DNA of 64,000 nt from Paracoccus sp. S3-43 (GTDB lineage Bacteria; Pseudomonadota; Alphaproteobacteria; Rhodobacterales; Rhodobacteraceae), in NCBI RefSeq assembly GCF_029027965.1, contig NZ_CP119082.1:1530001-1594000 (forward strand). The letters run 5' to 3'. The translations under genes and the position numbers were made by a program. This document shows positions 47,524 to 63,658 of this stretch, piece after piece. Positions within the stretch are counted from its first letter, which is position 1. Each line of letters opens with the position of its first letter. A model generated the notes under the pieces. It was not told the origin of the DNA. It worked only from the letters and a program-made list of their open reading frames with translations, and did not search any database.

Positions 47524-47689
47524 TGGTCTTCTCCGTGGTCTCATAGCGTTCGGCGAGGCGGCCGGCTCGCTCGCCGGACCGCCGGAGCGCGAGCAGGAAG
47601 AAAAGCACGCTGAAGCCAACGGCGCCGTAGCGCAGCGCGGCCCGCATCCATGGGCTGGCGGCAATGCCGCCTAGCAGCGCGGCGATCAT
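47432..47689 (-). CDS. Rz-like inner-membrane spanin
   Basis: 85 residues. One N-terminal membrane helix (AALRYGAVGFSVLFFLLAL) followed by a charged coiled region (ERAGRLAERYETTEKTNDVHRRMLEAAAR). The layout is that of type II i-spanins. It overlaps the endolysin stop by 4 bp and the Rz1 gene by 92 bp. Assignment rests on position, topology and overlap rather than family recognition. Confidence 0.65.
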   Translation of the reverse strand: MIAALLGGIAASPWMRAALRYGAVGFSVLFFLLALRRSGERAGRLAERYETTEKTNDVHRRMLEAAARRPRSRDELTERLRNGRF

Positions 47690-48360
47690 CGACGCCCCCG
47701 CTTCCAGTCATCGAGCCGCGCGTAGATCGTGACCGCGATGCCCCCGAGCGCCACGGCGATGAACACCCAGCGCAGCGTTCCGAGATAGGGTACGAGCGGC
47801 AGGATAGCGGATTGGGTCTCGGCCAGAACGTTCTGTGCCACCTCGACGCCCGCCGCGCCCAGCGTCGCCACACCGGCCGCTCCGCCACCCTTCATGGTGC
47901 GGCTCTGCGCCAGCACTTCGCGCGCCGGCGGGGTTTCGGCAGCGAAGGGAGTCGGCCGGACCGGGAAGCGCTCGCCCCACTGCCGTGCCGGGCCGAGATC
48001 GACATGGATGAAGCCCGAGCGCGGGTAGAAGCCAAAGCCGAGGAATCCGACCGCCCGCGCCGCGGCCTCGAAGGCCACCGGGTCGTGGTTCGCCATGGCG
48101 ATGTCGAAGGCGGCGCCGCCGAGATGTTTCGACCGCTGTGCACCGCCAACGGCGCGGTTGTGCTCGGGGCTGCGATAGGCCGAGCGCACGATCAGCGGTT
48201 TTTCCAGCCGGTCGCGCAGCGCCTGCAGCCTGTCGAGCGCGGGTTCGTTGATCAGCAGCTTGCCGGTGCCGCGGCAGGCGATCTCGGCGGGCGAGAAGTT
48301 CGGCCAGCGCCAGGCATTCTTCGGCACGTCGCGCCAGTGGCGGTGGAAGGTCGTGGTCAT
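47686..48360 (-). CDS. M15-type peptidase endolysin with C-terminal membrane segment
   Basis: 224 residues. The peptidase M15A domain (residues 1-140) shows PNFSPAEIACRG, LIVRSAYRSPEHNRAVGGAQRSKHLGGAAFDIAM (zinc His and Asp) and FGFYPRSGFIHVDLGP (zinc His). The C-terminal 75 residues end in a membrane helix (GTLRWVFIAVALGGIAVTIYARL). A peptidoglycan carboxypeptidase for lysis. The tail may anchor or export the enzyme without a separate holin; that is inference. Starts at ATG 48360 with ggagg in cctcc form upstream. Confidence 0.85.
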   Translation of the reverse strand: MTTTFHRHWRDVPKNAWRWPNFSPAEIACRGTGKLLINEPALDRLQALRDRLEKPLIVRSAYRSPEHNRAVGGAQRSKHLGGAAFDIAMANHDPVAFEAAARAVGFLGFGFYPRSGFIHVDLGPARQWGERFPVRPTPFAAETPPAREVLAQSRTMKGGGAAGVATLGAAGVEVAQNVLAETQSAILPLVPYLGTLRWVFIAVALGGIAVTIYARLDDWKRGRR

Positions 48361-49828: not shown

Positions 49829-52800
49829 TCAAAGTATCAGCGTGACGGTCTTGGGCGCCCCCCGCCCCACGAGGGCGGAGAGCTGGTAGATGCGGATGTC
49901 GAGCGTGTCGCCGAGGCCGAGCGGCGCGCCCCAGTCGGCGGTCTGGGCGGCAGCGTTGTAGACCACGTTGGCCGTGGCCGTGCTCAGCACCCGCTTCACT
50001 ATGGGGCCGTCGAGGATCTCGACCTCGTAGGCTTCCAGTTCCTCGACCAGCGGCACCTCCAACCCGCCCCAGCTGTCGGCCGCGAGTGCCCGGGACCGGC
50101 GGGTCCAGCGGATCGTCAGATCGCCGGGACTGCGCGCCTTGCGCCACGGCTGCTCGACGTGGGCGACCGAGAACGGCCGAAGCCCGACGCCCGTGGGCGT
50201 GAACGCCTGCGCCACATAGGTCTCGTCGCTGATTGGGCGGCTCGCCGGACCAATGCGCCAGTTCCACGGGATGCCGAGATCGGCCTCGGCGATTGGTAGG
50301 GACGCCAGCGCCGTGTCCAGGACCACGACCCGCGCGCCCGCAGGCGCCGGGTTGCCCATGGCGCCTTCCGTGCCGCGCTGGCCGCGCAGGAGACGTGTCA
50401 GCCGATACCTGCCCGGCGCCAGCAATTTGGCCGCACCCGCCTGCACAATCTCCCAGACGCCGGGCGCGCTCTCGATGGCGAGCGCGTTGGCCCCGCCGAA
50501 CAGCGTCAAGTCGGTCACGCTCTCCAGCGTTCCGGTCAGCAGATCGACCACTAGCGCATTACCGAGGTCGAAGCGCGACGTCGGCCCCGTGTAGAAGTCC
50601 GAGACCAGTGCCCCGATCCGGGCGCGGCTGCCGAACGTGGTCAGCAGCTCGAAGCCATCGGTCGCGGGGCTGCGGAACACTGCAATCTCGCCCGGCCACG
50701 GCACGGCGTGTGCCGCGACCAGCGGCCGATGCGCGAGCTGGTCCTCGGTCAGCTGCGGCAGGTCCATCAGCACCGCATCCGGTGCGCCGAACACCACCGC
50801 CCGCGTCAGCGATGCCGCGCAGGGATCGCCGGGCGGCAGATCGTAGGTCGCGCGGTCCTGGCGGACCGCCTCGATGCCGCGCGCCTCGGCGTCGGCGATG
50901 GAGACGAGCCGCAGATCGACCAGCCGTCCGTCATGCTCCAGCCGGATCGCGTCGGCCGGATCGAGCGCGAGACGCGAGGGCGGCAGACGGAACGCCGCCG
51001 TCTCCCGGCCCACCCACGCCTCCATCAGCGCGCGGCGGCAGCGGCGCTCAGCTTCCTCGGGCGGCACGGCCATCGGGAAGGACTCGGACGCGATCCGCGT
51101 CGTGTCCACGGTGATGCGCCGCGCCTCGACGAGGGCCGCGCCGTAATCCTCGTCGGCGCGCGCGACCTGCCATTTCAGCGCCTGCGGCAGTTCGGTCTCC
51201 TGGCCGCGCGTCAGCTCGAGGACGTCGCCCTCGCGGGCCGCTACCAGATCGTCGGGCGTCACGCTCGCCACCGCGGCCCGGCCGCGCATGACGAAGCGGA
51301 TCACGCCCTCGGACTCGACGGCGTCGAAGCCGAAATGCCGCGACAGCGTGGTGATGGAGGCGCGCGGGCTTTCGAGCGCGGTGATGGCGTAGCCCTCGAC
51401 CGCGCCCCAGAGGCCGGTGACGTCGATCCTCGACCCGGGCATCCCGGCCCGCAGGCAGAGGTGCCGCACGAGCGCCGCCAGTGACACCGCGCCGAGCCGC
51501 CCCGTCAGCCAGTGGCCGAGCCGCCAGTTCGCACCGTCCGTCCAGACGTCGGTCAGCGCCGGGAAGAACGGATACGGTCGCGCGTCCCAGGTCCAGGCGG
51601 CGCATTCGGGCACATGCACCATCCGGCCGCCGTAGACCGAGGACACCGGGTTGTTCGCCGGAACGCCCCACCAGAGATAGGTCGCCTCGAGATAGGCGCG
51701 CTGGATCGCATCGTCGCGCCAGCCCCGCGAGAAATACGGCGTGAAGCTCTCGGAGGACTTCGGATCGAAGAACACGTTCGGCTGGTTGGTGCCGCGGTCG
51801 ATGGCCGGGCAGCCGAGTTCGGTGAACCGGATCGGCTTCGACTGCGGCACCCATTCCGTCGGCGTCGCGCTCTGCACCCCGCCCGGGCGGTTGTAATGCT
51901 GGTTCGACCACCAGGCGCGCAGATCCTTGTAGCGGAAGACCCACGGCTTGCCGGCGGCACCGTCGGTGATCGGGGTCCGCAGCTGCGCGGTGCGGTCGGC
52001 GGCGCTGGCGTAGAACCAGTCGAAGCCTTCGCCACCCGCGATGTTCGCCTGCAGATATGCCCGATCGTAGATCGCGGGCCAGCCATCGGCGGCGTCAGCA
52101 TGCTCGAACCCGTCGCGCCAGTCGGAGAGCGGCATGTAGTTGTCGATGCCGACGAAATCGATCTCCGGGTCCGCCCAGAGCGGATCGAGGTGGAAGAACA
52201 CGTCGCCGCTGCCGTCCCCCGGCTGGTGGCCGAAGTACTCGGACCAGTCGGCGGCATAGCCGATCTTCGTGCCTGTCCCGAGGATCGTCCGGACATCCGC
52301 CACCAGTTCGCGACAGGCCTGCACCGCGGGATAACTCGCGGCGCCGCTGCGGATGGTGGTCAGACCGCGCATCTCCGACCCGATCAGAAAGGCATCGACG
52401 CCGCCGGCAGCTTTGCAAAGATGGGCATAGTGCAGGATCATCCGGCGCAGGCCCCAGTCGCCGGCCCGGCCGGTCCACGAAACCGACTGACCCGAGACGC
52501 TGAAGCTCGCGGGCGTGGCCGTGCCGAACAGTGACGCCACCTGCGTGGCGGCCGTGGCGGTCTTGTCCACGGTCCCGGCGAAACCTGCGGCAGGCGAACA
52601 GGTGATCCGCCCGCGCCAGGGGAAGACCGGCTGGCCGGTCTCTGCGGCGTTGTCGCTGTAAGGGTTCGGCAGCGTGTTGCTAGGCGGCACGTCCATCAGG
52701 ATGAAGGGGTAGAATGTCACGCGCAACCCGCGCGCCTTCATCTCCTGGATCGCCTGCACCACGGCGAAGTCGGCCGGCGTACCGCCATAGACGGGGCGGT

Positions 52801-53794
52801 CCTCGTCGTCGCGGCTGACGAAGAAGGCATCGGCGCGGCTGACGCCGTTCGCCGACCAACTGGCGGGCGTGGTCGACTTGGCCGAGACCTCGACGCCCGG
52901 CCGCACCTTGCACGATCCCGCGCGCAGATCGTCGCCGAACCAGGCCACGACGAGACTAACGCTCTCGACCGCGGGCGCCATCGCCTTCAGCCGGTCCAGC
53001 GCCTCCACCATGTCTGTGGAATCGGCCAGCGCGTTCAGGTTCTCCGCCTGCGTCGCGCCGCCATCGGTCTTGCGGATCGCCTGCGTGGCGTAGGTGAACT
53101 CTCCCGAGGCCGGGATCATGGTGACGGCGCGGGTCAGCCCCTCGGCGGTGTCGGGATCGGCGAGCGGCCGGAACACCTCGAAGGAGAGCTGCGGCAGGCG
53201 GTTGCCGTAGGTCGAGAGCGCCAGTTCCTCGAAGACGACATACGCGGTGCCGCGATAGGCGGGCGTGTTGACCGCCCCCATCTTCGCGGCGATGAACGGA
53301 TCGGCGGTCTGCGCTTCGTCGCCGGGATGCCAGCGCCACGTGACGCCGGAGAGGTCCATCGGCTTGCCGTCGGCCCAGATGCGGCCGATGCCGGTGATCG
53401 GGCCTTCGCACAAGGCGACAGCGAAGCTCGCGTAGTAGAGATACTCGGTCGTCTTGACCTTGCCGCCCCCGCCGCCCTTGCCGCCGCCTTGGGTGGTGGT
53501 CTTCGTCTCCTCGCGGAAATCGGTCGCCCAGATGATGTTGCCGCCCATCCGCATCCGGCCGTAGAGCCGAGGGATCACCGCGCCCTCGGTGGCCGAGGTG
53601 ATGCGCAGCGTGTCGAGCCGCGCGCCCTCGATGCGCTGGGTGGGCGCCAGCGACGAGATGATCCAGCTGTCGACGACCGAGCCGATGGTCGAGCCGATGA
53701 AGCCGCCGATGGTCGCGGCGCTGACGCCGAGGATCGCACCGCCGATGCTGCCGCCAATGGCGGCGCCAGCGGCACCGAGAACGAGGGTGGCCAT
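49829..53794 (-). CDS. GTA-type TIM-barrel tail tip/host specificity protein
   Basis: 1321 residues. The glycine/alanine-rich membrane-like N-terminus (VLGAAGAAIGGSIGGAILG) and AVIPRLYGRMRMGGNIIWATDFRE start the tail-hub region, as in gp15 of the gene transfer agent and phage J proteins. A TIM-barrel-like glycosidase domain lies in the middle (EYFGHQPGDGSGDVFFHLDP, FVGIDNYMPLSDWRDG, KPIRFTELGCPAIDRGTNQPN), then beta-sandwich domains and ARRITVDTTRIASESFPM. Known members bind host surface polysaccharide. The largest gene of the late operon. Confidence 0.9.
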   Translation of the reverse strand: MATLVLGAAGAAIGGSIGGAILGVSAATIGGFIGSTIGSVVDSWIISSLAPTQRIEGARLDTLRITSATEGAVIPRLYGRMRMGGNIIWATDFREETKTTTQGGGKGGGGGKVKTTEYLYYASFAVALCEGPITGIGRIWADGKPMDLSGVTWRWHPGDEAQTADPFIAAKMGAVNTPAYRGTAYVVFEELALSTYGNRLPQLSFEVFRPLADPDTAEGLTRAVTMIPASGEFTYATQAIRKTDGGATQAENLNALADSTDMVEALDRLKAMAPAVESVSLVVAWFGDDLRAGSCKVRPGVEVSAKSTTPASWSANGVSRADAFFVSRDDEDRPVYGGTPADFAVVQAIQEMKARGLRVTFYPFILMDVPPSNTLPNPYSDNAAETGQPVFPWRGRITCSPAAGFAGTVDKTATAATQVASLFGTATPASFSVSGQSVSWTGRAGDWGLRRMILHYAHLCKAAGGVDAFLIGSEMRGLTTIRSGAASYPAVQACRELVADVRTILGTGTKIGYAADWSEYFGHQPGDGSGDVFFHLDPLWADPEIDFVGIDNYMPLSDWRDGFEHADAADGWPAIYDRAYLQANIAGGEGFDWFYASAADRTAQLRTPITDGAAGKPWVFRYKDLRAWWSNQHYNRPGGVQSATPTEWVPQSKPIRFTELGCPAIDRGTNQPNVFFDPKSSESFTPYFSRGWRDDAIQRAYLEATYLWWGVPANNPVSSVYGGRMVHVPECAAWTWDARPYPFFPALTDVWTDGANWRLGHWLTGRLGAVSLAALVRHLCLRAGMPGSRIDVTGLWGAVEGYAITALESPRASITTLSRHFGFDAVESEGVIRFVMRGRAAVASVTPDDLVAAREGDVLELTRGQETELPQALKWQVARADEDYGAALVEARRITVDTTRIASESFPMAVPPEEAERRCRRALMEAWVGRETAAFRLPPSRLALDPADAIRLEHDGRLVDLRLVSIADAEARGIEAVRQDRATYDLPPGDPCAASLTRAVVFGAPDAVLMDLPQLTEDQLAHRPLVAAHAVPWPGEIAVFRSPATDGFELLTTFGSRARIGALVSDFYTGPTSRFDLGNALVVDLLTGTLESVTDLTLFGGANALAIESAPGVWEIVQAGAAKLLAPGRYRLTRLLRGQRGTEGAMGNPAPAGARVVVLDTALASLPIAEADLGIPWNWRIGPASRPISDETYVAQAFTPTGVGLRPFSVAHVEQPWRKARSPGDLTIRWTRRSRALAADSWGGLEVPLVEELEAYEVEILDGPIVKRVLSTATANVVYNAAAQTADWGAPLGLGDTLDIRIYQLSALVGRGAPKTVTLIL

Positions 53795-58937: not shown

Positions 58938-59882
58938 TCAGTATTCCTCGATGTCGTTGACGAGAGTGACGGTGCACATCCGCCCGAGCGTGGCGTCGCG
59001 GGCGGCCTGCCAGTCGAAGCTGGCCTGAATGCCCTGCGGCCCGCCGATCTCGATGCGCGGGCGGGGCAGATATACGGCGTGGACGGCGAGGGTCAGGCTT
59101 TCGCCGGAGACGAGCGTGTAGGAAAATTCCAGTTCACAGGGCGTGCCGCTGATCGCCTGCGTCACCAGCGTGCTGTCGGCGAAGCGCACCTCTGTCCGGC
59201 CGGTCAGCGCGGCAATCGAGGGATCGGCGCCGTCGATCATGCCGTCGGCGCGGATGGTCTCGATCCGGTCGAGATTGTTGGCATAGGTGATCTCGGTCGA
59301 GATCACGTTGCCCAAGGCGGTGCCGTTGCGTTTGATCGCGCCGTTGAAATGCCCGAAACGGATCAGGTCCAGTTCGGCCGGTGTGCCGGCGCTGCTGGTC
59401 GTGGCAACCGTCTCGCCCTGCGCCACCAGTAGCGCGGTCGCGGTCAGCAGGCCCGAGCGCTGCATCTGCCAGCTGAGCTGGTCCAGCACCACACCGGAAT
59501 ACATGGCGTAGCGCGGCACCTCGGGCATTCCAGTCTCGATGGAGAGGCTCGGCAGCGTCCAGGCGCCGGACTGGAAGGTATGGGTGAACGGGCCCGGCGC
59601 GCTTCCCGTCGTGGTCGGCGCGCCGAACGCCGCCTTCAGCCAGAAGCCGAACGCTTCTGCGTCGAGCGGCACCACGACGTCGCCATCGGCTGTCACCGCA
59701 TCCTTGACCGGCGCCAGCGGATCGCGGCCGTAGCCCAGAAGCTCCGAGTTCAGCAGCGGCTGTTCTGCTCCAAGCGAGGTGCTGGCGAACGGCATCCGAG
59801 TGAAACCGCCGGCTGGCCGCGTTCCATAGGTCGTCTCGAACGCGAGCGCCATCCGCGCCCGCGCCCCTTGGGCACGTGCCAT
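58938..59882 (-). CDS. major tail tube protein
   Basis: 314 residues. MALAFETTYGTRPAGGFTRMPFASTSLG at the start; SGSAPGPFTHTFQSGAWTLPSLSIETG and YAMYSGVVLDQLSWQM in the middle; NRDRIETIR-like LDRIETIRADGMIDGADPSIAALTGRTEVRFADS near the end. The beta-rich phage tail tube fold of HK97/GTA type. 2 bp before the chaperone gene. Confidence 0.88.
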   Translation of the reverse strand: MARAQGARARMALAFETTYGTRPAGGFTRMPFASTSLGAEQPLLNSELLGYGRDPLAPVKDAVTADGDVVVPLDAEAFGFWLKAAFGAPTTTGSAPGPFTHTFQSGAWTLPSLSIETGMPEVPRYAMYSGVVLDQLSWQMQRSGLLTATALLVAQGETVATTSSAGTPAELDLIRFGHFNGAIKRNGTALGNVISTEITYANNLDRIETIRADGMIDGADPSIAALTGRTEVRFADSTLVTQAISGTPCELEFSYTLVSGESLTLAVHAVYLPRPRIEIGGPQGIQASFDWQAARDATLGRMCTVTLVNDIEEY

Positions 59883-59905: not shown

Positions 59906-60322
59906 TCAGCCGAGCGGGTCGGCTGTGGAATAATGCAGGACGACCGGGATCACGGCCGCCTTCAGGCTGGCCGCCCCGGCGACGGGCAGATCGACCGGCT
60001 GCGGTGCCTCAGCCTCGACCCAGTCGCAAAGCCCGCCCAGCGTGCGGTCGGCGGCAAGCGCCGCGCCGATGCCGGCGCAGAGCGTGTCGAAGGCCGTGTC
60101 CCGGGCCGCGCCCTGCACGACCGCCTCGATCTCGGCGCGGTGCTGGTAGTGATAGCGGAGCGGCGACAGCGTGACCTCCGGCTCCCCCGGCTCCCCGTCG
60201 CGCAGGATCAGGAGACCTGCGGCCGGCACGCGTTCGGGCAGCACCTCGCCGCGCAGGGCGGTGGCGGACAGCGCCGAGAGCCGCGCGTGCAGCGCGGCAA
60301 CGATGGTTTCGCGGGGGGACAT
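59906..60322 (-). CDS. tail terminator/completion-type protein
   Basis: 138 residues from ATG 60322 (ATG 60334 also in frame). SPRETIVAALHARLSALSATALRGEVLPERVPAAGLLILRDGEPGEPEVTLSPLRYHYQHRAEIEAVVQG is typical of phage tail-completion proteins placed just before the tube gene. Its 5' end lies next to the inserted RES gene on the other strand, which separates it from the head-side operon. Confidence 0.65.
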   Translation of the reverse strand: MSPRETIVAALHARLSALSATALRGEVLPERVPAAGLLILRDGEPGEPEVTLSPLRYHYQHRAEIEAVVQGAARDTAFDTLCAGIGAALAADRTLGGLCDWVEAEAPQPVDLPVAGAASLKAAVIPVVLHYSTADPLG

Positions 60323-60342
60323 GGGATAAATCATCGGCTAAT

Positions 60343-61263
60343 TTGACTGACGAAACGCTCGGACAGCGAGGTCTTAGGCGTGCTCAACTCGATTTAGGGA
60401 AGCGCTGCTTGGCACCGAGCAACCAAGAGGTCGATGAGCTGCGGCGCCGATTTGGCGCGAACGTTCCGATTATTAACCGTATCCCGAGTGCCGAAGAGGT
60501 AGTCGAAAGAGAGTCGTGGCTTGAGAGGATTGCTGGCACAGTGGGGCTCGAAAAGTGGATGTGGAAATCGCGTCGCGGCCTTCTGATCGCAATCATTGTT
60601 GTGCCTCCGGGCATAAGCGGGCTCATTGATTTTTGGTCACCACCAATTAGAGCCGGTATTGAATATGCACGGCCGTACATTGGTGTGATTGAGAACACTG
60701 CCATTGCGCTCGGCCAGAGGATGGTTGTATTTCTTCCAGAGCGAGGTCCCGAAAGGCTTGACCCAATCTACCCACATGCGATTCTAGCCCCAGCCGTTGG
60801 ACAGATGATTACTGTCGCAGCAGGCATCACGAACATTGACGTCAGGGTCTATCGTCTTGCGCACCCCCGATACGATCCTTTAGATGGTCTTGGGCCTTCT
60901 CGCTTCGGTGGTAGATGGAACTCTCCCGGTCCACGCCTTCTCTACACATCGGACAGCATTCTCACGGCCATCGAAGAGCTTCGTCCGCATTTACCACTCA
61001 ACTCTCTTAAAAACTTTGTTCTTCATGAAATTAGGGTCTCAGCGCTTGCAGAGATCCTTCCGAGGGATCGTTCGAAAATCCTGATTGATGATTCTTATGA
61101 GGCTTCAAGACAAGTAGGAGACGACTGGATTAGGCGTGGTCAGTCGGATGTCTTGGTCGCGCCGAGCAGTGTCGATCCATTCGGCCATACGGTCGTTATC
61201 AACTTGGCGCACGCTGAGCGGATGGACATCAAGCTTGCCAGGAGCACCCCCATCAGTCTGTAA
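60343..61263 (+). CDS. RES-domain protein with a membrane segment (phage cargo)
   Basis: 306 residues if read from TTG 60343; no earlier ATG fits and the start is uncertain. The N-terminal 75 residues are helical; one membrane segment GLLIAIIVVPPGISGLI lies at about 79-95. The C-terminal RES domain (about 165-295) shows VYRLAHPRYDPLDGLGPSRFGGRWNSPG, LLYTSDSILTAIEELRPHL, DDWIRRGQSDVLVAPSSVD. The Arg191, Tyr201, Glu212 spacing matches the core reported for RES toxins, which destroy NAD+. No Xre-type antitoxin gene is adjacent. The gene has lower GC and runs opposite to the surrounding tail genes, as cargo genes in phages do. Possible roles: superinfection exclusion or abortive defence; both are inference. 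Confidence 0.8.
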   Translation: MTDETLGQRGLRRAQLDLGKRCLAPSNQEVDELRRRFGANVPIINRIPSAEEVVERESWLERIAGTVGLEKWMWKSRRGLLIAIIVVPPGISGLIDFWSPPIRAGIEYARPYIGVIENTAIALGQRMVVFLPERGPERLDPIYPHAILAPAVGQMITVAAGITNIDVRVYRLAHPRYDPLDGLGPSRFGGRWNSPGPRLLYTSDSILTAIEELRPHLPLNSLKNFVLHEIRVSALAEILPRDRSKILIDDSYEASRQVGDDWIRRGQSDVLVAPSSVDPFGHTVVINLAHAERMDIKLARSTPISL

Positions 61264-61290
61264 GGGTGATGGGGACTTGGCCAGCCAAGT

Positions 61291-61926
61291 TCATTCCGGA
61301 AACCCGCCCCCAGCCCAATTCGTCACGATCAGCCCCGGCACGGCATCTCGCGCCCGCTCCGCATCCCGCGCGAGGTCCAGCCGCTTCTTCAGCCTGACCT
61401 GCGGGACCAGCAGGAAGATCGGCACGGTGGTGAGCCCCCGGCCGGTCTTCGAGCGCGACGCCACTGCGCGCCCTTTCGTGTTCAGCCGCCCCTCGGCCAC
61501 GAGCAGGCTCGGTCCGGTGCGCCGATAGACGAAGCGCAGGCGCAGGCCGGTGCGACGCTCCCATTCGCCGGGGGTGATCCGGCCACCCCGGAGGGACTTG
61601 CCGGCTGCGGCTGTGGGGATCGCCAGCCAAAACCCGTCCTTGGAGCGGATCAGCGGGCCGGTGTCGTGAGCGCCGACGATGACCGGAGCCTTCGACCAGA
61701 CCAGCGCGGCGGCGTTCAGGCTGTCCCGGCCTTTCGGGAACTGCTCCGAGCGGATGGTGCGGGCGAGCCGCGCCCCGAGACCCGCGCCGGTGATCTGCGC
61801 GCGCCAGGCGGTCTTGAGGCCGCTCCCGGCGTCGCGCATCGCCGTGGTGACGGCTTTCTCGCCGGCACGGGTCTCAGTCTCCATGATCCGGGCGATGTCG
61901 CCGATGATGTTGACGCCGAGCTTCAT
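61291..61926 (-). CDS. DUF6441/HK97-gp10-like tail protein
   Basis: 211 residues from ATG 61926. MKLGVNIIGDIARIMETETRAGEKAVTTAMRDAGSGLKTAWRAQI and LARTIRSEQFPKGRDSLNAAALVWSKAPVIVGAHD; the C-terminal half is rich in beta strands (FVYRRTGPSLLVAEG). The set of residues resembles the head-tail connector/gp10 group. Its start overlaps the stop of the 61923 gene by 4 bp. Confidence 0.7.
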   Translation of the reverse strand: MKLGVNIIGDIARIMETETRAGEKAVTTAMRDAGSGLKTAWRAQITGAGLGARLARTIRSEQFPKGRDSLNAAALVWSKAPVIVGAHDTGPLIRSKDGFWLAIPTAAAGKSLRGGRITPGEWERRTGLRLRFVYRRTGPSLLVAEGRLNTKGRAVASRSKTGRGLTTVPIFLLVPQVRLKKRLDLARDAERARDAVPGLIVTNWAGGGFPE

Positions 61927-62234
61927 GCAGGCCTCAGATCGACGGTCCAGACGAGCCGTTCGCGGTCGCGGACCGGCTCGCCCTCGATGAGGAAGGCCTC
62001 GTGGCAAATCTCGACGCGGTCACCGGGGCGTGGGTCCGCCACCTCGACGACGCGCAGGTCGATCCGGGTGGTCTCGGACCAGAGCCTCGCATCGCCGAGG
62101 TCGGTGACGGCATCGGCCCGCCGGGCGACGACGCGCACCAGCAGGGGCGCGCCGCCGTCGGCGATATAGACCGCATCCCGGCCGATGTTCGGGTCGGCGA
62201 AGAACGTGTCGACAGCAGCGGCAAAGGCGGACAT
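61923..62234 (-). CDS. head-tail joining protein
   Basis: 103 residues from ATG 62234. FAAAVDTFFADPNIGRDAVYIADGGAPLLVRVVARRADAV and DPRPGDRVEICHEAFLIEGEPVRDRERLVWTVDLR. This small beta-rich protein closes the head side in lambda-like and related siphophages. The start shares a base with the capsid gene stop. Confidence 0.7.
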   Translation of the reverse strand: MSAFAAAVDTFFADPNIGRDAVYIADGGAPLLVRVVARRADAVTDLGDARLWSETTRIDLRVVEVADPRPGDRVEICHEAFLIEGEPVRDRERLVWTVDLRPA

Positions 62235-63247
62235 CACGTGCGCCGGGCCGAGCGCAGCACCTGCGGCCGGGTGCAGATCGGCAGTGGATTGCTCTCGATC
62301 TCCAGCCGCACCCATTCGTCACGATCCCGATCGGGGATGGTGCGGGCGTAGAGCGGCAGACCCAGCGTGTTCACCGTCTCGAAGGTGTCCGCAGGGGCGT
62401 GGTAGATCTCGAACAGCCCCTCGACGCCTTCGGGATAGAAGAATGCCTTGTCGGTCGGCACGCCGAAGCCCGCGCCACCGCGGTAGCGCCGGAAGGTGAT
62501 GCCGCCGAAGCTGACCTCGTCGGCCACCCGGCCGCGCAGATCGGCTGCGGCAGCGGTGTTGAGATAGGTCTCGCGCACCTCCTTGTGGGCCACCAGATCG
62601 GCGAAGAAGGCCGAGCCGCATTCCGCGCGCACCTGCACCGCACCTGCCGCAAGCCCGCCCATCGACGCCTCGACGTCCTCGATCAGCGCCTGGCAGCGCT
62701 TCCGGAGCGCACCCGAGGTCGGGCTCGCATTGTCGAGGTCGAAGTCGATCTCGGGGCTGGGCGTGATGCCGAACTCGGTGAAGTAGCTGATCACCGTCGC
62801 ACCGTCCTTCGGATCCCTCACGATGCCCTGAATGCCGTTCAGCAGGTGGTACTCGAAGGTGGCCTCGGCATCCTGGCGCAGGCGGCCGAGCTTGCGCGCG
62901 ACCTCGCTCTGCACCTGCTGGGCCGCAGTTTCCGAGCCGAAGTCGCGGATGCCCTGGATCTCGGAGGCCCAGAGCACGTCCTGCTTCTTGAACTGGCGGC
63001 AGACGAAAGCGCGCATCTCGCGCCGCTCGGGTACCTGCTGTTCATACGCCGAGCCGCGTTCGGAGAACGGGATCAGCGAGAGGGTGCCGTCGCGGCTCTC
63101 GATCACGACGGTGCGGGACCGCACCCCACGCGGCGAGAACAGGCCAGCGCCCGACAGGATCGCGGGCCGGAAGGGGATGTTTTCCAGCGCGCGGGTGAGT
63201 TCGATGATGGTGAAGGCATCGCCTTCGAAGATGTCCATGGTGGCCAT
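62234..63247 (-). CDS. major capsid protein, lambda gpE family
   Basis: 337 residues. MDIFEGDAFTIIELTRALENIPFRPAILSGAGLF and RGVRSRTVVIESRDGTLSLIPFSERGS, then VARKLGRLRQDAEATFEYHLLNGIQGIV and GITFRRYRGGAGFGVPTDKAFFYPEGVEGLFEIYHAPADTFETVNTLGLP. This is the phage-E capsid family and differs from the HK97-type GTA capsid. It assembles the procapsid with the S49 protease and gpD decoration protein upstream. Confidence 0.9.
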   Translation of the reverse strand: MATMDIFEGDAFTIIELTRALENIPFRPAILSGAGLFSPRGVRSRTVVIESRDGTLSLIPFSERGSAYEQQVPERREMRAFVCRQFKKQDVLWASEIQGIRDFGSETAAQQVQSEVARKLGRLRQDAEATFEYHLLNGIQGIVRDPKDGATVISYFTEFGITPSPEIDFDLDNASPTSGALRKRCQALIEDVEASMGGLAAGAVQVRAECGSAFFADLVAHKEVRETYLNTAAAADLRGRVADEVSFGGITFRRYRGGAGFGVPTDKAFFYPEGVEGLFEIYHAPADTFETVNTLGLPLYARTIPDRDRDEWVRLEIESNPLPICTRPQVLRSARRT

Positions 63248-63292: not shown

Positions 63293-63658
63293 TCAGCGGA
63301 CGAGGATGCCCGCGGCGAGGAGCGCCACATGGGCGGCCGCGATCTCGGCTGCGCTGAGGGTGCCCGCGAAGACGAGGTCATGGCGGTTGACGATCGCGGG
63401 GCCGCGGACCACGGCGACGGCAGGCGCATCGCCCGCGCTCGCATCCGCCTTGCCCCAGAGCACCGCGACGGCGGTCTCGGTGCCGTCGACGGCCGCGGGA
63501 TCGTGGGCGGCGTATTTGCCGGAGGCGGTGATCCTGCCCAGCACGGTGCCGGGATCGAGCGTGCCGGTTGCAATGGTGATGGTCTCGCGGGTGTAGTCGC
63601 GGAACGCCTCCCAGACGAGGAAGCCGCCCGCGTGCGGGGTTTCGGTGAGCGTGGTCAT
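63293..63658 (-). CDS. head decoration protein, lambda gpD-like
   Basis: 121 residues. GGFLVWEAFRDYTRETITIATGTLDPGTVLGRITASGKYAAHDPAAVDGTETAVAVLWGKADAS, HDLVFAGTLSAAEIAAAHVALLAAGILVR. The repeat-like fold with conserved G-T-x-D-P-G-T-V-L-G is typical of gpD proteins that lock the expanded shell. 45 bp upstream of the capsid gene. Confidence 0.88.
   Translation of the reverse strand: MTTLTETPHAGGFLVWEAFRDYTRETITIATGTLDPGTVLGRITASGKYAAHDPAAVDGTETAVAVLWGKADASAGDAPAVAVVRGPAIVNRHDLVFAGTLSAAEIAAAHVALLAAGILVR

Follow-up and report, generated by a model that had tools for sequence, protein, structure and literature searches.

A lone RES-domain gene in a cargo slot between the DUF6441 and tail terminator genes of a Paracoccus prophage

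The window analysed here is a stretch of 64,000 nucleotides from Paracoccus sp. S3-43 and contains a large part of a prophage. Among its structural genes, an open reading frame (ORF) encoding a RES-domain protein is placed between a DUF6441 gene and a tail terminator gene. The elements of the locus are the following.

60323..61290, no strand: cargo cassette, from the stop of the DUF6441 gene to the probable start codon of the tail terminator gene (ATG, 60322)
60343..61263, plus strand: RES-domain cargo gene, 306 amino acids, start TTG 60343, alternatives TTG 60409 and ATG 60559
61291..62007, minus strand: DUF6441 gene, left anchor of the slot (PF20039, phrog_6367)
59906..60334, minus strand: tail terminator gene, right anchor of the slot (phrog_4204), start probably 60322
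58938..59882, minus strand: tail tube gene (Phage_tube_2)
61923..62315, minus strand: head-tail attachment gene (Phage_attach)
62234..63247, minus strand: major capsid gene (Phage_cap_E)
63293..63658, minus strand: head decoration gene (HDPD)
49829..53794, minus strand: tail protein gene (phrog_4271)
47686..48360, minus strand: peptidase/endolysin-like gene (phrog_17373, phrog_894)

The RES ORF is read from the plus strand and the flanking DUF6441, terminator, tube and capsid genes from the minus strand, as an earlier sequence-only reading had stated in describing a gene opposite to the late operon. The position of the DUF6441 gene is like that of lambda Z. For the terminator gene the likely start is Met5 at 60322, because tblastn matches mostly begin at residue 5-8. 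Beyond the window, the same prophage contains portal, both terminase, primase/helicase, resolvase and Sak4-like genes, so that its set of structural and replication genes looks complete. The start site of the RES gene itself is uncertain: the ribosome-binding context is better at TTG 60409 (GGGAAG) than at TTG 60343, and ATG 60559 is likewise in frame. The frame is unbroken over 306 codons, for which the probability by chance is 1.5e-6, and no promoter was predicted for the gene in a promoter scan. Within the protein and its gene, the following parts can be distinguished, all on the plus strand.

60343..60837, plus strand: N-terminal 165 residues, no relative found
60577..60633, plus strand: hydrophobic stretch, residues 79-97, possible weak membrane segment (Kyte-Doolittle hydropathy, KD, 2.01)
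60844..61230, plus strand: RES domain, residues 168-296 (PF08808, E 6.3e-21; MbcT/ParT fold)
60913..60915, plus strand: Arg191 codon, invariant in 43/43 relatives
60943..60945, plus strand: Tyr201 codon, 41/43 relatives
60976..60978, plus strand: Glu212 codon, 43/43 relatives
61165..61167, plus strand: Ser275 codon, 43/43 relatives

A putative RES triad of arginine, glutamate and serine has been described (PMC12457610). In the alignment with 43 relatives all four RES core residues (Arg, Tyr, Glu and Ser) are present in the cargo protein, and the Arg-Tyr-Glu core on which the domain had originally been recognised is kept among the homologues. By structure comparison (VIA-align, where folds absent from the listing were not counted as excluded) the predicted fold of the RES part is that of MbcT/ParT and is not placed outside the RES fold. 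Alignment and model together show the predicted protein to have an intact RES-type ADP-ribosyltransferase-fold domain. By analogy with its family, it is most likely an NAD+ phosphorylase, as are NatT and other RES toxins. Some positions differ from those of the relatives: Glu is found at the Asp229 position (Asp in 42/43; ParT also has Glu here), Arg at the Gln256 position (Gln in 39/43), and Thr at the Cys/Asn283 position (Cys or Asn in 42/43). The score against the NCBIfam model Res_ParT_toxin is 70.1 bits, below the curated cut-off of 110. A Pfam scan of the protein detected RES only, with no MuF (Phage Mu F) domain and no other phage domain, and none of the PADLOC 2.0.0 families matched at E values of 1 or below.

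RES toxins are usually accompanied by an Xre-type antitoxin, whose absence had been claimed for this locus. The families Xre_MbcA_ParS_C (PF09722) and Xre-like-HTH (PF20432) gave zero matches across the whole single-contig genome. As a control, PF09722 was found in 43 of the 43 genomes that supplied the comparison RES genes, and within 1.5 kb of the RES gene in 40 of 43 cases. The claim is therefore supported at the level of the genome, and by its partner the cargo protein falls outside the RES-Xre type II toxin-antitoxin systems. No antitoxin domain was detected by Pfam in the N-terminal part of the protein. The RES ORF takes up 921 bp of the 968-bp cassette and thus leaves no space for a partner gene beside it.

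Relatives of the protein are confined to its RES part. No close relative of the whole protein was found by tblastn in 50,697 phage records, nor by a short-pattern search of viral_contigs and genome_contigs, which detects close relatives only. Among plasmids no place covered 80% of the query, and matches started at residue 124 or later among the 20 of 1491 records listed. The 295 genomes of the family gave 13 matches besides the protein's own, all restricted to the RES part. The N-terminal region obtained five weak matches besides its own in 385 genomes of the class and two weak matches in 299 genomes of the phylum. The five (L017-L021) were taken as chance and rejected as relatives; three of them (L017, L019, L021) are presumably gamma-glutamyl phosphate reductase. 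As the N-terminal region is without relatives, a sensor or inhibitor role for it is unsupported.

A membrane tether for the enzyme, part of the sequence-only reading, turned out to be weak at best. Residues 79-97 have a mean hydropathy of 2.01, which is equalled by 300 of 2000 shuffles of the same protein, and on the octanol scale the protein's best window (-6.9) is equalled by 543 of 2000 shuffles. The stretch contains two prolines and is not helical in the structure model. The contrast with the RES family is mixed, since an octanol window below -3 occurs in 17 of 43 other RES ORFs, while a hydropathy of 1.6 is reached by 1 of 43. In view of the shuffle test, a membrane anchor was no longer put forward as a firm claim. 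The octanol windows by themselves would allow two crossings, at 79-97 and at about 141-160. A single crossing with a positively charged N-side would place the RES domain outside the cytoplasm, where it would be separated from NAD.

The position of the gene was examined by comparison of the DUF6441-terminator junction in viral contigs, family genomes and named genomes. The loci comprised the best 80 of at least 596 and the best 80 of at least 594 candidate stretches from viral contigs, and the best 80 of 455 from named genomes; being best matches to the anchor proteins of this prophage, they are near relatives by design. Some prophages were sampled repeatedly, so that 226 loci contain 180 distinct slot sequences. 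Of these 226 best-matching loci with both genes, 220 have a gap of more than 400 bp between DUF6441 and terminator, and 4 have a gap of at most 50 bp. Without the named genomes, the gap exceeded 400 bp in 146 of 151 loci, and in 124 of 128 once identical gaps were removed. The claim that a prophage late operon holds this gene as cargo is thereby strongly supported and extends to a family-wide slot. At the neighbouring junctions the same size is reached in 1/251 loci (attachment-DUF6441), 5/169 (tube-next gene), 14/228 (terminator-tube) and 15/85 (capsid-attachment). The last two junctions are minor extra insertion places.

Loaded slots measure 381 to 4263 bp, with a median of 1041 bp (221 loci above 300 bp), and in all 177 unique slots above 300 bp the cargo has a lower GC content than its flanks (mean difference -0.119). 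The longest cargo ORFs of these 177 slots fall into 105 clusters, of which 73 are singletons and the largest has 13 members. Where both flanks share at least 90% DNA identity, 60 of 244 locus pairs contain cargo that is unrelated by blastn on both strands and by tblastx. When identical loci are dropped, this is the case for 49 of 144 near-identical-flank pairs, with 45 loci involved; in the remaining loaded pairs there is at least a partial match between the cargos. For example, the flanks of L248 and L250 are 95% and 94% identical and their cargo is unrelated. In the ends viewed (25 left, 40 right), the DUF6441 stop immediately precedes the cargo, which mostly ends at the terminator ATG. In the relatives viewed, the terminator gene starts mostly with ATGCCCACC, and variable sequence fills the space from the DUF6441 stop to this start. 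In these ends the apparent exchange points are sharp. Comparison among loci thus identifies the DUF6441-terminator junction as a cassette slot of a lambda-like prophage family, evidently refilled by exchange.

Hosts of the slot-bearing prophages include Paracoccus, Rhodobacter, Devosia and Ancylobacter. Nine loci (L295-L303) share one identical DUF6441 match (78%, residues 5-234, E 6e-109) and belong to Rhodovulum, Tropicimonas, Hoeflea, Paracoccus, a Zavarzinia metagenome-assembled genome, Jiella and Amaricoccus, which suggests that one prophage has recently spread across genera and orders. The cargo is antisense to the late genes in 102 of 177 unique slots, a slight bias, as judged by the longest cargo ORF, which may be spurious in GC-rich cargo such as that of L132; a strict antisense rule was accordingly rejected. 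All 15 sequenced phage records that contain both anchors have an empty slot (extrapolated gap -6 to -28). Eleven of these are Rhodobacter capsulatus phages, whose anchors are about 47-54% identical to those of this prophage. For the RcC-cluster members in the Table 3 excerpt of PMC8601537, the lifestyle is given as not determined and plaques are generally turbid. A contrast between virulent and temperate phages was therefore not drawn from these records, eleven of which are distant.

The contents of the slot are diverse. Among 81 cargo representatives, the 25 commonest of 71 Pfam families include ParE, HEPN, HipA, RES, Schlafen, RelA/SpoT and ParD, together with sulfate permease, cation efflux, LysR and integrase core, and the 25 of 38 PADLOC families listed include QueC and DrmC. 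Non-defence matches include SulP, LysR and IS3. In 40 further cargo ORFs, the 25 of 28 Pfam families listed comprise cation efflux, MuF, ParE, decarboxylase, MFS, NYN and HEPN, with MuF matched by two members of this second set. Ten cargo proteins, our own picks from the 81 representatives, were scanned singly. An in-slot gene of L033 (6433-7323) contains a SIR2_2 (SIR2-like) domain and is presumably another NAD-targeting kind. Schlafen AlbA_2 was found in L068, RelA_SpoT in L086, and a PLD-like domain in L087. The cargo of L099 (3394-4578) has both a MuF domain and a bacterial RNase A toxin domain, and its longest ORF forms a blastp cluster of 7 loci with those of L049, L080, L139, L176, L194 and L197. 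The proteins of L053, L094 and L118 gave no Pfam match, and those of L078 and L100 sub-threshold matches only. One of the 81 cargo proteins matches acyl carrier protein models. The gene acpP has been reported as a cargo gene in prophages of high-latitude Rhodobacteraceae (PMC8224337), where it is possibly a resident of the same slot.

The source genome has three further prophages with the same anchors. In L132 (G000:C1:1135000-1144000) the slot is occupied by MerA (TIGR02053, 524.5 bits, above cut-off) and also by a MerT-like gene below the curated cut-off. In L134 (G000:C1:1893000-1903000) there is a cation diffusion facilitator-like gene, below the NCBIfam cut-off, beside what we read as an ArsR-like regulator. 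In L133 (G000:C1:1958000-1968000) there is an 805-bp stretch of 50% GC with no recognised gene, in which a 110-aa ORF has no Pfam match. A genome of the same genus (G023) contains ORFs resembling the mercury cargo of L132 (L138) and cargo resembling that of L134 (L137). Given this mixture of conflict, metal-resistance and metabolic cargo, the junction is a slot for cargo in general, and conflict genes make up one class of its contents. A second RES gene was not found in the 226 slots examined, and by phmmer the cargo protein matched none but itself among 1578 ORFs from these slots, so that recurrence gives the RES function no support.

What the RES gene does for the prophage can be proposed by analogy. 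RES enzymes break NAD+ with phosphate, and NatT depletes NAD+ (PMC11535050). The single reading that we consider most likely, with somewhat less than even confidence, is a trigger-controlled, NAD-depleting growth arrest that would serve phage defence. The RES gene is the current resident of the cassette slot. As neither usual antitoxin family is present in the genome, the enzyme would probably be restrained by its own N-terminal region of 165 residues, and an infection or stress cue might free it. The loss of NAD+ would then stop the growth of the lysogen and protect its kin and the resident prophage. On prophage induction, since the gene is placed against the late operon, late transcription could run antisense through it and spare the resident phage. 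A role in defence or superinfection exclusion, as first proposed for this gene, is plausible but unproven. In its favour are the SIR2-like, Schlafen, RelA/SpoT, HEPN and toxin-type genes that occupy the same slot elsewhere. On the other side stand the mercury reductase, cation efflux, sulfate permease and LysR regulator genes in the same slot, the lack of a PADLOC match, the single occurrence of RES among the slots and the slightness of the antisense bias. Phage-borne RES has been suggested to hit superinfecting phages or to induce host dormancy (PMC9503650), whereas PMC11535050 states that immunity has not been linked to any RES system and that natT had no effect on more than 50 phages. The boldest form of this proposal is doubtful. 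It holds that a one-gene, antitoxin-free RES effector with an N-terminal sensor, released by infection and acting by NAD+ depletion, would be the first RES-based anti-phage defence, lodged in an undescribed rotating-armoury slot of temperate phages of Alphaproteobacteria.

Other explanations have been considered. The gene could be general lysogenic-conversion cargo that serves the host under stress and not against phages; its RES product would brake growth on a stress trigger, in the manner of NatT or GndR, and its place in a general slot would be incidental. This is unlikely, yet it agrees with the mercury and cation resistance genes that fill the same slot in the same genome, and with the action of NatT in drug tolerance (PMC11535050) and of GndRX in genotoxic stress (PMC12457610). 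As described in these sources, NatT and GndR adjoin an Xre-type antitoxin, whereas here neither tested family occurs in the genome. It is improbable that the gene is decaying or inactive, a toxin captured without its antitoxin and surviving because it is silent or weakened. The weak start signals, the lack of a predicted promoter and the changes at the usually conserved positions 229, 256 and 283 would fit such a history, as would the lack of close relatives on which selection could be measured; the intact frame of 306 codons and the four retained core residues argue against it. Quite improbable is an addiction or stabilisation module, in which the RES toxin would be paired with an unrecognised antitoxin elsewhere in the prophage or within the same ORF. 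An adjoining antitoxin is indeed the habit of the comparison RES genes, but the cassette has no room for one beside this ORF, the two tested families are absent from the genome, and the N-terminal part is free of antitoxin domains by Pfam. A virion-delivered effector like the MuF-linked toxins is highly improbable, for although MuF effectors are packaged in phage heads (PMC9503650) and a MuF protein occupies the slot in L099, a member of the seven-locus cluster, with two MuF matches in the second cargo set, the cargo protein has no MuF or other phage domain and is read against the late genes.

The growth-arrest reading can be approached directly, in that a lone prophage RES gene makes the question of RES immunity testable without the usual antitoxin. 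In related viruses, the slot contains unrelated toxin, defence and metal-resistance genes and is thus a place to look for the weapons of phages and bacteria. With its sharp edges and easily found anchors, many unrelated cargos of one to a few genes can be collected by one search. In a literature search conducted mostly outside subscription journals, no paper describing the DUF6441-terminator slot was found among the titles and abstract openings listed, nor any mention of DUF6441.

Among known systems, the RES-Xre modules (MbcT-MbcA, ParT-ParS, NatT-NatR and the RES-Xre of Pseudomonas putida) share with the cargo protein the RES fold and the Arg, Tyr, Glu and Ser residues. The cargo protein differs from them by its length, 306 amino acids as compared to 144-182 in the MbcT, ParT, VPA0770 and P. 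putida RES chains and 250 in NatT, by the 165 extra N-terminal residues without relatives, by the lack of the usual antitoxin gene in the genome and by its score under the Res_ParT_toxin cut-off. In Paracoccus prophages, toxin-antitoxin genes opposite to the surrounding genes, arsB opposite to the structural genes and metal-resistance genes in 10 phages have been reported (PMC6536676). No definition of a shared slot was seen in that study, whose main text uses the words cargo, moron and hot spot 0 times; its oppositely oriented toxin-antitoxin and arsB genes may be residents of the DUF6441-terminator slot. The P2/P4 hotspots, as described in PMC9122126, belong to another phage family and other hosts. 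The present slot is located inside the head-tail connector genes and not next to cos, it also contains metal-resistance and metabolic genes, and its defence content is predicted from domains. It resembles the P2/P4 hotspots in its small size, 0.4-4.3 kb as compared to about 1-5 kb in the hotspots, and in that two conserved phage genes flank fast-changing unrelated genes, defence types included (PMC9122126).
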